From Pyrodictiaceae archaeon (GTDB lineage Archaea; Thermoproteota; Thermoprotei_A; Sulfolobales; Pyrodictiaceae), in NCBI GenBank assembly GCA_027036135.1, contig JALVSY010000007.1, positions 314,880 through 378,879 on the forward strand: a DNA stretch of 64,000 nucleotides, read 5' to 3'. A model generated the notes under the pieces. That model did no database searches. It saw only the letters and a list, made by a program, of their open reading frames with translations, and had not been told where the DNA came from. The position numbers and the translations under genes were made by a program. Below are positions 2,363 through 36,110 of this stretch, piece by piece. Numbering within the stretch: position 1 is the first letter of the stretch; every line of letters begins with the position of its first letter.

Positions 2363-2470
2363 GCCGCCGTAGCTCAGCGGGCAGAGCACCGGCCTCGTAA
2401 GCACCCCGCTGCTGTCCGCGGGTTCCGAGGGAGCCGGGGGTCCCGGGTTCAAATCCCGGCGGCGGCTCCA
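2363..2470 (+). tRNA. tRNA-Thr(CGU) with a 32-nt intron, CCA encoded
   Basis: The acceptor stem GCCGCCG (2363-2369) pairs with CGGCGGC (2460-2466), followed by discriminator T and encoded CCA. The D stem is GCTC/GAGC. The anticodon stem CCGGC (2389-2393) pairs with GCCGG (2433-2437). The loop C-T-CGT-A-A gives anticodon CGT (threonine). The T arm is CCGGG-TTCAAAT-CCCGG. An intron of 32 nt occupies 2400-2431, or equivalently 2401-2432 because an A occurs at both junctions. It lies at canonical position 37/38 and needs the bulge-helix-bulge endonuclease. U73 is typical of archaeal tRNA-Thr. Confidence 0.95.
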
Positions 2471-30989: not shown

Positions 30990-31219
30990 CACTAAACCTT
31001 ATTATATTAAGATAATATAATATTATATTTTATTAATTATAATTTCTTTCTTAAAAATATTTATAAAATAATTAATAAAATATAAACCAAAATAAGTATA
31101 TAATGTAACTATTTGAATGCTAAATGCTTTCCTGCAACTGTGTCTTAAAGAATTAACCAAGCAAAGCTTAAAAATGTTTATACTAAATATGAAAATGTAA
31201 AGATGGTGATAGAACAACC
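30990..31219. other. Very AT-rich intergenic segment
   Basis: No gene supported. 31021-31080 holds only two C and no G. A 16-bp palindrome lies at 31014-31029. A TATA-like TTAAAAATGTTTA near 31168-31180 may drive the 89-residue gene. The segment could act as an easily melted region. Confidence 0.5.
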
Positions 31220-31489
31220 ATGCCATACATAGGTGACTATACAGATCTAAGAAGTCTCATACCTTTTATAGCTGATGAAGTCAGAACATCTTGTTACGCC
31301 ACCATACAGATTTTATATGAAAGTCCAGACTTTATAAGAATTTGCACAGCTCGCAATTGTATAAGGTTATATTGGGAGTGGGGAAGATACGTTTACCTCG
31401 TAGACGAATATAGTGGAAGTAAGACTGATGTAACAAGTTATCCATTATATTATGGAATAAGACATATAGCTGCTCTATTGTGCCGATAA
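31220..31489 (+). CDS. Hypothetical protein, accessory island
   Basis: An 89-residue ORF, not recognised. The translation is plausible for a folded protein (SLIPFIADEVRTSCYATIQIL, then IRLYWEWGRYVYLVDEY, a hydrophobic strand pair) and is preceded by a TATA-like element and by GGTGAT 12 bases before ATG 31220. AT content and codon use differ from the housekeeping neighbours, consistent with acquired DNA. Confidence 0.45.
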   Translation: MPYIGDYTDLRSLIPFIADEVRTSCYATIQILYESPDFIRICTARNCIRLYWEWGRYVYLVDEYSGSKTDVTSYPLYYGIRHIAALLCR

Positions 31490-31696
31490 TTCACTGCCTA
31501 TTCTATATTAGGCACTATAGTTCAACTCTTTATGTTTAGAAGACAAGCTTAATATTAAACTAACTAAACCAATATATTATGATATAGACTTGTTAGTTCT
31601 CGGTTAAAGTTAAAGAGCCAAAACCGGAATATATGAAACAAGAAAACAGAAAGAACTTTAAAACTTATGAGGAATTGCTTTTAAATTACTTCATGA
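31490..31696. other. AT-rich spacer before the left attachment repeat
   Basis: About 200 bases with no gene. A small hairpin TGCCTA/TAGGCA at 31494-31513 just after the stop of the preceding ORF may mark its transcript end. Confidence 0.3.
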
Positions 31697-31743
31697 TGGC
31701 GGCCCGCGGGGATTTGAACCCCGGACCTCCGGCTCCGAAGGCC
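31697..31743 (-). repeat. Left attachment repeat (partial tRNA-Arg copy)
   Basis: A 47-base copy of tRNA-Arg positions from the anticodon loop to CCA. It is identical to 34010-34057 except for one G missing from the acceptor-stem G run. The missing base would spoil a tRNA 3' end, so this is the drifted copy. Similarity stops abruptly after GAAGGCC. Confidence 0.93.
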
Positions 31744-31870
31744 CCGAGACTTAAAAGCAAACGTTTCAATGTGAAACATAACTGCTGAAACGAGTATACA
31801 CTACTGACTATCAGTTTGTATTGCATTGTTAGCTCACTGAAATTTTGCCAGAATACTATACTGGGAGCGG

Positions 31871-32376
31871 GTGGTCTTTGCTTTGACTAGTGTCATGGAA
31901 GTTCCTACTAGCCTTGCTACACTAGCCTCAGTAGTTGTGCTCATTTATCAGATTCATCTTTTGAAGAAGGAAGTGAGAGTTAACACCTACTTTCGACTCA
32001 TAAAGGAGGCGGTCTAGGATTAACCGGGTTTTTATAGAGCATCCTTCCACGTCTAAGCTCCTAGCGGGTGCAGGCTACGTAGAGGATGATGGCGACAAAT
32101 CTATTCGAGCACGATGATCAGCAATAACAATCCTAGACTTCTTTGAAAATCTCTACTATGCGTACCGTAATGGGGTTATACCGGAGAGCCTTTGGGAAAG
32201 CTGGAAAATGCATATTAGCAATATGGTCTGCCAAGTGGAGTTGTTAAGAAGGCGGTGGTGTAAAGCTAGAAGAGCATACTGGAGTGAGTTCAATGAGTTC
32301 CTCGAAAATATATGCGTTAATCTAAAAGAAAATGTTTTTTTTTTTTTTTTTGGAAGTAATAAAAGAGCGTGCTAGA
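31871..32376 (+). pseudogene. Decayed membrane-protein gene (DUF4760-like)
   Basis: Fragments of one protein can be read in two frames. The first part (GTG 31871 or ATG 31895) encodes a membrane helix and IYQIHLLKKEVRVNTYFRL, and stops at TAG 32015. The frame that opens at 32013 continues RINRVFIEHPSTSKLL, hits TGA 32115, then reads ILDFFENLYYAYRNGVIP and LWESWKMHI up to a T17 run. FIEHP...LDFFE...W..WK is the order of motifs in small membrane proteins of the DUF4760 type in mobile DNA. One frameshift and one internal stop make it a pseudogene. Confidence 0.7.
32335..32351 (+). repeat. Homopolymer T17 tract
   Basis: Seventeen consecutive T residues inside the 3' end of the decayed gene. It is either neutral slippage in dead DNA or a former phase-variable or terminator-like tract. 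Sequencing error in its length is possible. Confidence 0.9.
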
Positions 32377-33188
32377 AGTACTAAAATCTTAATCAGCTGT
32401 GCTATTTTGCTACTACTTTGAATCCTACTTGTCTGCTTTTGTGGTATGTTGCTAATGCGTACCAGGGGCTAGGGCTGGGTGTGGGATGGGGGAGGCTGCG
32501 AGGAGATTGACGATGGCTACCAGTATCGATGGTAGCGCTGAGAGTCACAAAGCTGGGTGGAGCAGCTTCACAAGCTTGAAGACGGGCCTCACGGAGTCTA
32601 GGCGTAGTAGGTCTAGGGTTCACCAGACCCACCTCCTCCGCCCAGCAGGCCCTTAGGATGAATGAGGACTGCCCGTAGATGCCCCGGAACCAGCCCAAAC
32701 CCTCCCAGAACGCTGCTCCACCAGCAGGCCCTTCCGGGGCATTGCTCTCAGTGTATTATCTTACGGTTCCCTTACTGACCCTCCTGCCTGCGAGTAGCTC
32801 GTAGAGTATCTTCACCGTTGAGAATGCTGCCCCCGTGGGGTAGAGTAGCCGACCGGCGCGCTGTGGCCTCTCTACGAGGCTTACTGGGGAAGCGGTGCCA
32901 GCGCGCCCTTGGAGGAGGCTATTGAGCGGGGCTGTAGACAGGTACAGGAGTGAGGTAGGGAGTAGGGGTAGTGAGCGTAGAGCACGCTACTATGCATAGC
33001 TACTCCTACGCGGGGCTGCGAAGGCTGCGCTTACAGCATCTCTACAAGGATAGCCTCGCCCTCCGATGCTATAGCTGAATTGCACGAGGTTAGGAGAAAG
33101 ATATTTGTGGAGCCCTTCTACACGATCTTTATATGATGAAGACTATGGGAGTCCTATGGAAGTCCTTAGCAGAGGGGTAATAGAGTCT
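32377..33188. other. GC-rich mosaic without an intact gene
   Basis: About 800 bases in which no frame gives a convincing protein. It contains an 11-bp perfect inverted repeat (32679-32689 and 32732-32742) and a repeated CCAGCAGGCCCTT (near 32642 and 32721). Such features could be the end of a decayed insertion sequence, but no transposase motif is readable. Confidence 0.5.
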
Positions 33189-33635
33189 TTATGGTATTAC
33201 CTTTAACCATGGTATTCGTTTAAAGTCTTTATCTAGTGTAGCAATAGTTGATACGCCATAGTATCTACACGTAACTACTATCTGTGCATCAGTGGGTAAA
33301 AGCCGGTATTTAGTGATAACATCTCTGAGCTCTTCTACTGATTGATAGTCTTTAATTATCCTTAAATTTAACTCTTCTAAAAGTTTGTGAATTTCTTCTA
33401 AAGGCTCTTCAAACGCTTCCATCCCTCTCTCTATAAAGAATCTCTTGAATTCATGATAGCTAGCAATGCCGTATTTGCGTCTAACATACGCTCTAAACGT
33501 AACGTGAAGCAACTCATTATACACGATCACAGATGTAACCGGTTCCACTAGTAGCTCAACAGCTTTCCTAGCTATTGGTGTAAGCTCTGTCTCGTAGAGA
33601 ATATTGTAGAAGATGTTTGTATCCACAAAGATCAA
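33189..33635 (-). CDS. vapC: VapC toxin, PIN-domain ribonuclease
   Basis: A 148-residue PIN-domain toxin that cleaves RNA when freed from VapB. The acidic active-site set is visible: D5 in MIFVDTN, E41 in YNELL, D116 in LPTDAQIV, and D135/D137 in TLDKDF. The length and C-terminal strand (IATLDKDFKRIPWLKVI) are typical. It overlaps the antitoxin gene by four bases on the same strand. It is the only intact operon inside the integrated element, and may have stabilised it. Confidence 0.92.
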   Translation of the reverse strand: MIFVDTNIFYNILYETELTPIARKAVELLVEPVTSVIVYNELLHVTFRAYVRRKYGIASYHEFKRFFIERGMEAFEEPLEEIHKLLEELNLRIIKDYQSVEELRDVITKYRLLPTDAQIVVTCRYYGVSTIATLDKDFKRIPWLKVIP

Positions 33636-33835
33636 GAGCTGTATATCTCTTCTTCGTAAGCCTCTAACTCTTCAGCCGAAGCTTTACCCAGTATGCCTAT
33701 AAACCTATCTATGTTGGGCTTCCTCCTTATAATAACGATAACCTCTTCACCATCCCTCAGATCCACGTTTTCCAATAGCTTTAACACACCCCTCTCATAC
33801 CTAGCCCTAACAGTAAGGGACATCTTCACTCCCAA
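33632..33835 (-). CDS. vapB: VapB antitoxin (AF2212/DUF104 type)
   Basis: A 67-residue antitoxin. The N-terminal beta domain MSLTVRARYERGVLKLLENVDLRDGEEV is characteristic of the AF2212/PG0164-like (DUF104) family that pairs with PIN toxins. The C-terminal tail (ASAEELEAYEEEIY) is acidic and would wrap the toxin. The start may be ATG 33823 (MSLTV) rather than 33835. It is translationally coupled to vapC, and usually represses its own promoter. Confidence 0.88.
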   Translation of the reverse strand: MGVKMSLTVRARYERGVLKLLENVDLRDGEEVIVIIRRKPNIDRFIGILGKASAEELEAYEEEIYSS

Positions 33836-34009
33836 GATAATCTATCTCAACGTGCCTATTATCAATTATCCTGGAAAGACCGCGCCGAAAAGACGCTTGG
33901 CTCGGGAGAAGTTGAAGACAGGGAATGAGAAAATCTAGCAGAAACGAATTATAGAAATAGTAATGAGGTCATGCTTAGCGATAGTTAGAGTTTATTCACT
34001 AATAGTATG

Positions 34010-34057
34010 TGGCGGGCCCGCGGGGATTTGAACCCCGGACCTCCGGCTCCGAAGGCC
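34010..34057 (-). repeat. Right attachment repeat within tRNA-Arg
   Basis: The 48 bases of the intact tRNA-Arg 3' half that recur, with one deletion, at 31697-31743. They define the probable integration core, running from the anticodon arm to CCA. Confidence 0.93.
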
Positions 34058-34087
34058 GGCGCCCTATCCTGGCTAGGCTACGGGCCC
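34010..34087 (-). tRNA. tRNA-Arg(UCG), CCA encoded
   Basis: Read on the minus strand: acceptor GGGCCCG pairs with CGGGCCC, then G73 and CCA. The D stem is GCCT/GGGC with one G-U pair. The anticodon stem CCGGC/GCCGG encloses CT-TCG-GA, giving anticodon TCG. The T arm is CGGGG-TTCAAAT-CCCCG. No intron. The 3' half is the element's attachment site and is duplicated at 31697-31743. It starts 31 bases after the argS stop codon on the same strand. A TATA-like ATGTAAAACA overlapping the argS stop could also give it its own promoter. Confidence 0.96.
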
Positions 34088-34118: not shown

Positions 34119-36110
34119 TTACATTCTTTCTAGGGGTTTTATGCCTAGTATTCTTAGCGCGTTTGCTGTTACGGTTTTTACTGCTTGTACTAGTGCTAGT
34201 TTGTAGTTTCTCTTGCCGGGGTCAAGCTCGTTTATGGCGCTGTCTCCGCTTGTGTACCACTTGTTGAACGTGTCTGCTAGCTTGTTTAGGTAGTTTACTA
34301 TGAGTTCTGGTTTGAGCTCGTCTGCTGCCTTGGCAAATATGTATGGGTAGTTGAGTAGTTGTAGGACTAGTTTCCTTCTCAATGGGTTCTCGTTTGCTGC
34401 CGTGTAGTCTATGTTGTCTATGTTTATTTGTAGTCCTCTTTCCCGTGCCTTGGCTAGTATGTTTGCTGCGCGTGCGTGGGTGTAGAGTATGTAGGGGGCG
34501 CTGTTTTGCTCGAAGTTTAGTGCTTCTTCTATATCGAATGTCATTGGCTTGGGGGCCGAGACCGATACTAGGGTGTACCTGATTGCGGCTATTCCTACGG
34601 CTTCTGCTATCTTTTTCTTCTCCTCGGGTGGTAGGTGGGGTGATCTCTTCTCTACTTCTTGACGTGCTCTTGTTATTGCTTGTTCTATTAGCTCGTCGAG
34701 TGCGACGTACTCTCCTCTTCTTCCGCTCATTTTCCTGCCTGGTAGGTTTACCATTTCGTATGCGTAGTGGTGCATGTTTAGTCCTTCCTTTCTATAGCCT
34801 AGGGCTATGAGTGCTAGTCTTACTTGTAGTTGTGGTAGGCGTTGCTCTGCCGCTATCACGTTGTAGACTTTGTCTGCGTTGAAGTCGCTGAACTTCTTTA
34901 TGCTGTAGGCTATGTCCCTTGTGGTGTAGAGTGTTGTTCCGTCGCTTCTCTGTAGTATGAGGGGTGGTACCTCGTAGCCCTCTGGTACTCCTAGGGCTTG
35001 GCGTATGACTGGGTCTTTTAGGAGTGGTTGTAGGTTTAGTGCTAGGGCGCCCTTATAGGTTATCGCGTAGGGCGTTGTCTTTGCCCTCTCTATTATTTTT
35101 CTTACGAGGCTGCTCCATACTAGGTCGCTTTCCCAGTCCCATTGGTCGAAGCCTATGCCTAGTCTCTGTAGTGTTTGTTTGAAGCCTTTTAGGCACTTCT
35201 CTACGATTGTTCTTGTTAGCTTTACTATTTCCTCGTCTTCTCCGAACTCGTAGCTCCGCATTATCTCCTGTATTTCCTTCTCCGGGTCGCGTCCACGGAT
35301 AGCCTCTGCTAGCTTGTCGAAGAGCTCTGGGGCTTTCTCGCGTAGCCGCGAGGCCGCTGCTACTAGCTCGTCGAGCTCCCTTAGCTTCTCGTGGTACTTG
35401 TCCAGGTTGTCTCCCCGTTTCAGCTCCCCCAGCTCTTTTTTTAGCTCCTCTATGTCTGCTAGTGTGTGCGTGAGGGCATAGAGTAGTCCTAGCCAGTGGT
35501 CGGGCTTAGTTCCCTCCGGTATCCTGGGTTCTCCGAGGAGTTTTGCCCCGTAGACTAGTACTGCTACTTGTCTACCCATGTCATCGACATAGAACCTTGT
35601 CTGGACCCTGTGGCCTCTCTCCCTCAGCAGGCGTGCAAGGGTGTCGCCTAGGGCAGCGTTCCTCGCGTGGCCTATGTGGAGGGGGTGGACGGGATTGGCG
35701 CTGGTGTGCTCAACTACTATTCTTAGCGGTGTATCCGTCTTCACGTGGCCATAGTTTTCCCCGTCTCTAATCACGGCAGTGAAGATTGCCCGGGAGGCCT
35801 CAGCAGCGTCTATGACTATGTTCAGGTAACCTCCTACGCGCTTAACGCCAGCTATGTGAGGATACCTCTTCAGCTTCTCGGTGGTCTTCTCAACAAGTAC
35901 TTGTAGGTCTAGGCCGTGCTTCTTCGCAAACCTCGCTATGGGTAATCCGTAGTCTCCTAGCTCGGGGCGCGGCGACTCAGCTACAATGTACTCGATGAGC
36001 TTCTCGTCCTCGCTTACCCCGAGCTCTCTTAGAGCCTCGTGGAGACTAGCACCTAGGACGCGGTACGGTGTTAGGTTGTATACTTGCCAGCTGTGCTCTG
36101 GCTCGGGCAT
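34119..36110 (-). CDS. argS: Arginyl-tRNA synthetase
   Basis: A 663-residue class I synthetase charging tRNA-Arg. An N-terminal Add1-like domain (residues ~20-115) is followed by HIGHARNAALGD, a long insertion with a coiled-coil region (about 210-290), the KMSGRRGEYV loop as the KMSKS equivalent, and the C-terminal helical anticodon-binding domain (NSAPYILYTHARA, ending in RILGIKPLERM). The tRNA-Arg(UCG) gene follows on the same strand. Codon third positions are ordinary near the 5' end but almost all A or C in the last ~500 bases next to the island. Confidence 0.96.
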   Translation of the reverse strand: MPEPEHSWQVYNLTPYRVLGASLHEALRELGVSEDEKLIEYIVAESPRPELGDYGLPIARFAKKHGLDLQVLVEKTTEKLKRYPHIAGVKRVGGYLNIVIDAAEASRAIFTAVIRDGENYGHVKTDTPLRIVVEHTSANPVHPLHIGHARNAALGDTLARLLRERGHRVQTRFYVDDMGRQVAVLVYGAKLLGEPRIPEGTKPDHWLGLLYALTHTLADIEELKKELGELKRGDNLDKYHEKLRELDELVAAASRLREKAPELFDKLAEAIRGRDPEKEIQEIMRSYEFGEDEEIVKLTRTIVEKCLKGFKQTLQRLGIGFDQWDWESDLVWSSLVRKIIERAKTTPYAITYKGALALNLQPLLKDPVIRQALGVPEGYEVPPLILQRSDGTTLYTTRDIAYSIKKFSDFNADKVYNVIAAEQRLPQLQVRLALIALGYRKEGLNMHHYAYEMVNLPGRKMSGRRGEYVALDELIEQAITRARQEVEKRSPHLPPEEKKKIAEAVGIAAIRYTLVSVSAPKPMTFDIEEALNFEQNSAPYILYTHARAANILAKARERGLQINIDNIDYTAANENPLRRKLVLQLLNYPYIFAKAADELKPELIVNYLNKLADTFNKWYTSGDSAINELDPGKRNYKLALVQAVKTVTANALRILGIKPLERM

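Follow-up and report, generated by a model that had tools for sequence, protein, structure and literature searches.

Among described systems, the nearest in behaviour to the locus analysed here are cis-mobilizable elements (CIMEs), including the ssrA islands of Dehalococcoides. According to PMC3146451, which cites Pavlovic et al. 2004, the ssrA islands are without integration modules and CIMEs undergo tandem accretion; like the cassettes described below, these elements end in attachment sites, have no integrase and form tandem stacks at a single RNA gene, with integrase-bearing relatives next to them. The cassettes described here differ in being archaeal, in using many tRNA-Arg isoacceptor genes, in having a unit of ~1 kb whose whole cargo is usually a single toxin-antitoxin operon, and in lying near tyrosine-type rather than serine recombinases. 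Integrons, both the archaeal ones (PMC9668308) and the toxin-antitoxin cassettes of superintegrons, likewise show small cassettes, tandem arrays and toxin-antitoxin or defence cargo. Here, however, the sites seen are tRNA-Arg 3' halves where integrons have attC, the nearby integrases match PF16795, every cassette retains arm sites that are double-stranded, and a tRNA gene anchors the array; tRNA goes unmentioned in the archaeal integron paper (PMC9668308). SSV-type and pNOB8-type integration has in common with our cases the tyrosine recombinase family and the tRNA 3' half as target, and the review of archaeal tyrosine recombinases records tandem integration and integrase loss (PMC8371274); a term search of that review found no cassette of the present tRNA-Arg type. 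In contrast to the SSV/pNOB8 type, no split integrase was found here: those observed are intact and lie directly downstream of a complete tRNA, and the cassettes are without any. The variable regions of Sulfolobus islandicus resemble our locus in their mobile-looking vapBC operons and in the tRNA-gene insertions of crenarchaea, but vapBC there is flanked by degenerate IS copies rather than by tRNA-Arg 3' halves (PMC3718332). A literature search that was short on subscription papers, and may have missed an earlier description, found no paper on tRNA-Arg-bounded vapBC cassettes, and the family of ~1-kb tRNA-Arg toxin-antitoxin cassettes is apparently undescribed.

The window, by which we mean the whole 64,000-nucleotide stretch of Pyrodictiaceae DNA that was analysed, carries an intact tRNA-Arg(TCG) next to argS, a linkage also present in sister genera (Table 1). 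The initial annotation had reported a duplicated tRNA-Arg 3' half with a sharp inner end, and both claims were borne out by ARAGORN, Rfam and blastn. The 3' half at 34010-34057 and its copy lie in the same orientation and match at 47/48 positions (97.9% over 48 columns, E 1e-17), a similarity well above what chance would give; the base missing from the copy belongs to the acceptor strand, similarity stops at the anticodon loop and the copy has no 5' half. The complete gene is the putative insertion target or regenerated attachment site. The arms beside the copy match those at other tRNA-Arg scars in register and spacing, and the RF profile matches window 31828-31699 with E 6e-15 and 54 bits, compared with ~32 bits for the tRNA part alone. 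Neither a second cassette nor a left-flank motif was found left of 31697, where the profile match covers the tRNA part only. The DNA at 30990-31697, left of the scar, is AT-rich (GC down to 0.23) and possibly older foreign DNA; an 89-aa ORF within it (31220-31489) has no database match.

Table 1. Features of the tRNA-Arg(TCG) site and of the segment inserted in it, in window coordinates.
Feature	Position	Strand	Evidence or remarks
argS, host flank gene 5' of tRNA-Arg	34119-36110	minus	Pfam tRNA-synt_1d / DALR_1
Intact tRNA-Arg(TCG), CCA encoded	34010-34087	minus	ARAGORN; Rfam RF00005, 66.7 bits
Inserted segment, mostly non-coding/decayed	31744-34009		2266 bp
vapB, AF2212-like antitoxin	33632-33835	minus	PF01954 E 3e-20
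vapC, PIN-domain toxin	33189-33635	minus	PF01850 E 2e-16
Broken gene, weakly DUF4760-like	31841-32322	plus	Frame change near 32010, stop 32115-32117
Inverted arm pair GTTTCA (31791-31786)...TGAAAC (31768-31763)	31763-31791	minus	Start-to-start spacing 23
TATA-like box TTTTAAG, between arms and scar	31750-31756	minus	
tRNA-Arg 3'-half copy (attachment-site scar), one base deleted	31697-31743	minus	blastn vs 34010-34057

Analysis of the inserted segment confirmed that a vapBC pair lies between the two tRNA-Arg copies. The vapC frame is open and keeps the conserved acidic positions of our VapC alignment A1; among the loci compared, its closest relative is a fragment beside tRNA-Pro(TGG) in G003 (82% identity). 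At that locus (L108 12640-13064, the end of G003:C62), the tRNA-Pro is followed by this vapC, cut by the contig end, which hints that cassettes also use tRNA-Pro. The broken plus-strand gene matches DUF4760 at E 0.002, below the gathering score, and neither it nor the 89-aa ORF had convincing homologues in the loci retrieved for the family. Between 32400 and 33100 the insert is GC-rich (up to 0.61), apparently non-coding and unlike both flanks. No integrase similarity was found at either end of the insert, and the N and C fragments of an SSV-type split integrase were not found at the two attachment sites. The SSV/pNOB8 label given at first was not upheld, as no split integrase was found and related integrases lie intact, directly downstream of a complete tRNA; nor was the proposed 31-codon integrase stub upheld, since its frame is interrupted by a stop that falls shortly before or within the tRNA and matches no integrase family. 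The view that the segment is an integrated, partly decayed remnant is supported, the scar being one that site-specific insertion has left in the 3' half of a tRNA gene. We consider it probable that the segment 31744-34009, in the 3' half of tRNA-Arg(TCG), is a cassette that lacks an integrase and has decayed, and that the family to which it belongs is moved in trans by arm-matched integrases. A viral origin was also considered and rejected: the integrase and VapC alignments have no relatives in 2.9 million viral contigs.

Alignment of vapBC segments lying at tRNA-Arg fragments revealed that they have non-coding ends in common. Read in the direction of the tRNA, a unit consists of a tRNA-Arg 3' half, ~130 bp, vapC and vapB pointing back to the tRNA, and ~160 bp at whose end the inverted repeat GTTTCC...GGAAAC and a TATA box lead into the next tRNA-Arg 3' half. 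L166 of G003 holds an intact tRNA-Arg(TCG) followed by one 0.95-kb unit and a scar, L115 on another contig of the same genome holds a row of such units, and at L168 of G002 the cassette ends lie on either side of a 6.5-kb stretch that includes a GmrSD-type gene. A scan of the GTDB genome contigs with alignment A1, made of five VapC from such units without any tRNA sequence, yielded 79 loci in 55 assemblies, with a taxonomic spread over Desulfurococcales and Acidilobales; because the query proteins were drawn from tRNA-Arg units, the fractions that follow apply to this group of VapC proteins rather than to VapC in general. Nearly all tRNA-like matches in these loci were to tRNA-Arg (124/128), with a copy ≤3 kb away in 58 of the 79 loci and in canonical place and orientation on at least one side in 52 (37 assemblies). 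The vapBC of these 52 loci lies in a unit, usually of 0.8-1.0 kb, that has at one end a tRNA-Arg or 3'-half copy, at a distance of 50-164 bp from the stop of vapC, and at the other end a further 3'-half copy. In the Archaeoglobi, none of the six loci of the survey had a tRNA-Arg copy ≤3 kb away. One orientation of tRNA-Arg relative to the nearby vapC prevailed by 87 to 4. The 65 units measured between consecutive copies ranged from 748 to 2533 bp; 45 were ≤1016 bp, most of them 820-990 bp, and tandem arrays of several units were seen at L202, L219 and L217. Units without this VapC carried alternative cargo (MNT-HEPN, other PIN proteins, a DUF3368 PIN, PaREP1, Csx1-CARF), and at L185 and L214 a methyltransferase lies beside vapBC. 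The vapBC of the window had been read as the leftover of a virus or plasmid, which is not supported: in dozens of ~0.95-kb integrase-less units it is the normal cargo. An increase of scar decay with distance from the tRNA was seen in 3 of 6 arrays, so that array polarity is not supported.

The window has the direct-orientation scar, the arms, the TATA box and the toxin-antitoxin cargo by which the family was defined. Its insert is long for the family yet within the range of the 65 units, and 1.4 kb of it falls outside assigned parts. A vapC stop facing the tRNA 3' end at a distance of ~50-165 bp and a conserved left flank, which are typical of the family and not universal, are missing; the vapBC is reversed relative to 87 of the 91 neighbouring tRNA-Arg copies of the family, an order also found at L223 and L244. 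The window copy is most likely an older or rearranged member of the family.

To compare the same site among related genomes, we examined argS-linked tRNA-Arg genes. The content of 31.7-34 kb is absent from 16 related genomes except for tRNA and vapBC homology. In G004 of the same genus and in G011 and G016 of sister genera the argS-linked tRNA-Arg(TCG) is scar-free and is followed by ordinary genes; neither an excised circle nor a strictly empty allele of the very site in the window was seen. In G001, the strain closest to the window genome, the assembly is interrupted in the argS-tRNA-Arg region. An intact integrase-bearing element lies in the argS-linked tRNA-Arg(TCG) of G013, a broken C-terminal integrase piece follows that of G005, and in G019, of another family, an intact integrase-bearing element comes after a tRNA-Arg(CCG) that adjoins argS. 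This occupation of the same gene in sister taxa, together with an insert that exceeds the typical cassette size and contains a broken gene, is what would be expected if an ordinary virus or plasmid with its own integrase had lost that integrase and most of its genes and kept the addictive vapBC. We regard such an origin as unlikely: it leaves unexplained why dozens of loci agree in the 0.95-kb unit, in its conserved ends and in the spacing of vapBC, because independent decays would not converge on one such unit. Around argS (window ~23-40 kb; L076, L077), a comparison of G000 with G004 shows the block from tRNA-Arg to window ~40 kb to be inverted with respect to the glcD block of G004.

Analysis of the sequences just outside the tRNA-Arg copies revealed arms of the types GTTTCC, GTTTCA and GTCCCA at a fixed spacing. 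An exact GTTTC/GAAAC or GTCCC/GGGAC pair within the 100 bp outside the scar was found at 35/88 scars, compared with a mean of 0.2 and a maximum of 1 in dinucleotide shuffles put through the same arm-pair test. A motif-free count of 6-bp inverted repeats at a spacing of 21-25 gave 39 vs 2.2 in mononucleotide shuffles, and a TATA-like box stood at the expected place in 40 of the 88 scars (6.3 expected). VapC enzymes act on structured RNA, and a TATA box in front of the copies makes their transcription possible; both points could be taken to mean that the left copy arose independently as a tRNA pseudogene, or that it encodes a tRNA-like RNA with a regulatory role in the vapBC operon. That reading is extremely improbable, given that the copies are without a 5' half and many of them without a T-loop, and the TATA box would fit a promoter entering the integrase gene in integrase-bearing elements.

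Four loci (L184, L186, L217 and L233) have one tRNA-Arg(TCG) and its 5' flank in common at 83-95% identity; between L184 and L233 the identity is 95% over 2.85 kb and ends exactly at the tRNA 3' end. Downstream of this common tRNA lie vapBC of type A (L184, L186), vapBC of type B (L233) or MNT-HEPN (L217), and at L188, which has another 5' flank, vapBC of types B and A follow each other in tandem. Whole units are swapped at the attachment site, as predicted by site-specific recombination. The similarity of tRNA-Arg genes to one another, and the capacity of unequal crossing-over to expand tandem copies, would also allow units to have spread between tRNA-Arg genes through homologous recombination or by segmental duplication, with no site-specific recombinase involved. 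We hold this to be very improbable, as breaks invariably fall at the anticodon loop and have inverted arms beyond them at fixed spacing, the arm words equal those of adjacent integrase genes, and the exchange of cassettes takes place precisely at the CCA end, past which the DNA is unrelated. At L184 an element end of the GTCCC type, which includes the first codons of an integrase, comes after the scar; the vapBC cassette there has the tRNA on one side and this element end, with its 5' integrase remnant, on the other. Such an arrangement was not seen in the window.

The integrases found at tRNA genes form a PF16795-like family of ~430-480 aa with, by inspection, an N-terminal helix-turn-helix, present in 35/197 genomes of the order. 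In most loci examined the integrase follows a complete tRNA of the same strand, its start lying ≤~140 bp downstream, and in many an inverted arm pair lies between the two genes. At tRNA-Arg these arms read GTTTCAG or GTTTCAC (L262, L265, L267), GTCCC (L266, L278, L280), GTTTCCA (L286) or GTTCAC (L279). The words GTTTCA, which is that of the window, GTCCC and GTTTCC are common to integrase-bearing elements and integrase-less units, and the left-flank profile of the cassettes also detects (E 4e-19) the stretch that follows the tRNA at L286, an integrase-bearing locus. The window genome has members of the integrase family at tRNA-Asp and tRNA-Ser; no tRNA-Arg-specific integrase was found in it.

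The unit structure, scars, arms, TATA boxes, tandem arrays, exchange at the tRNA 3' end and arm words matching integrase-bearing elements are all directly visible in the DNA; as judged from sequence, the cassettes are best read as cis-mobilizable (CIME-like), and the insert in the window has attachment sites at both ends and no integrase of its own. An excised circle would carry one tRNA-Arg 3' half flanked by the inverted arms and TATA box, and an autonomous element that has the same arm sites would provide a tyrosine recombinase in trans. Recombination with a chromosomal tRNA-Arg would regenerate the tRNA and leave a displaced 3' half, repeated insertion would stack the cassettes, and the toxin-antitoxin pair, in its presumed addiction role, may select against cassette loss. 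The reversed vapBC and extra DNA of the window may come from a later rearrangement or from an older, larger cargo. A broader proposal, which we put forward tentatively and with somewhat less than even confidence, is that tRNA-Arg genes of Desulfurococcales and Acidilobales serve as standing capture sites, an archaeal analogue of integrons, at which ~1-kb toxin-antitoxin and defence cassettes, each with a tRNA-Arg 3' half and arm sites, are collected and exchanged by the tyrosine recombinases of separate elements that come and go. Such cassettes offer a plausible route for the spread and pile-up of toxin-antitoxin and defence genes in hyperthermophilic, vapBC-rich archaea. They are missed by annotation tools that require an integrase; such a route is testable, since cassette ends, target genes and candidate arm-matched integrases are all named.

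To see the pattern elsewhere in the window genome (2.2 Mb, 40 contigs), we used the stretches around tRNA-like and integrase sites and classified all 62 T-arm sites. Five tRNA-Arg-like 3' fragments without a 5' half were found, four through T-arm sites and one through blastn, and all five adjoin AF2212-type vapBC; the genome holds 15 AF2212-type vapB. Fragments resembling tRNA-Asp, tRNA-Asn and tRNA-Leu adjoin integrases instead. A tRNA-Thr(CGT) with a 32-nt intron after position 38 lies at window 2363-2463 and is missed by ARAGORN without the intron option. A toxin-antitoxin cluster at L165 (G000:C7:606000-615000) comprises two vapBC units with oppositely oriented cassette ends and a UPF0175/DUF3368-like pair. 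At L110 (G000:C2, a 12.7-kb contig), a tRNA-Ser(GGA) is followed by an integrase of the same family as that of L109 and a large helicase-like gene, and the region is probably another integrated element. L109 itself (G000:C30:228000-245000) is an ~8.2-kb integrated element at tRNA-Asp with an intact integrase, GTTGCA arms at both ends and, by inspection, nuclease-, ATPase- and primase-like genes.
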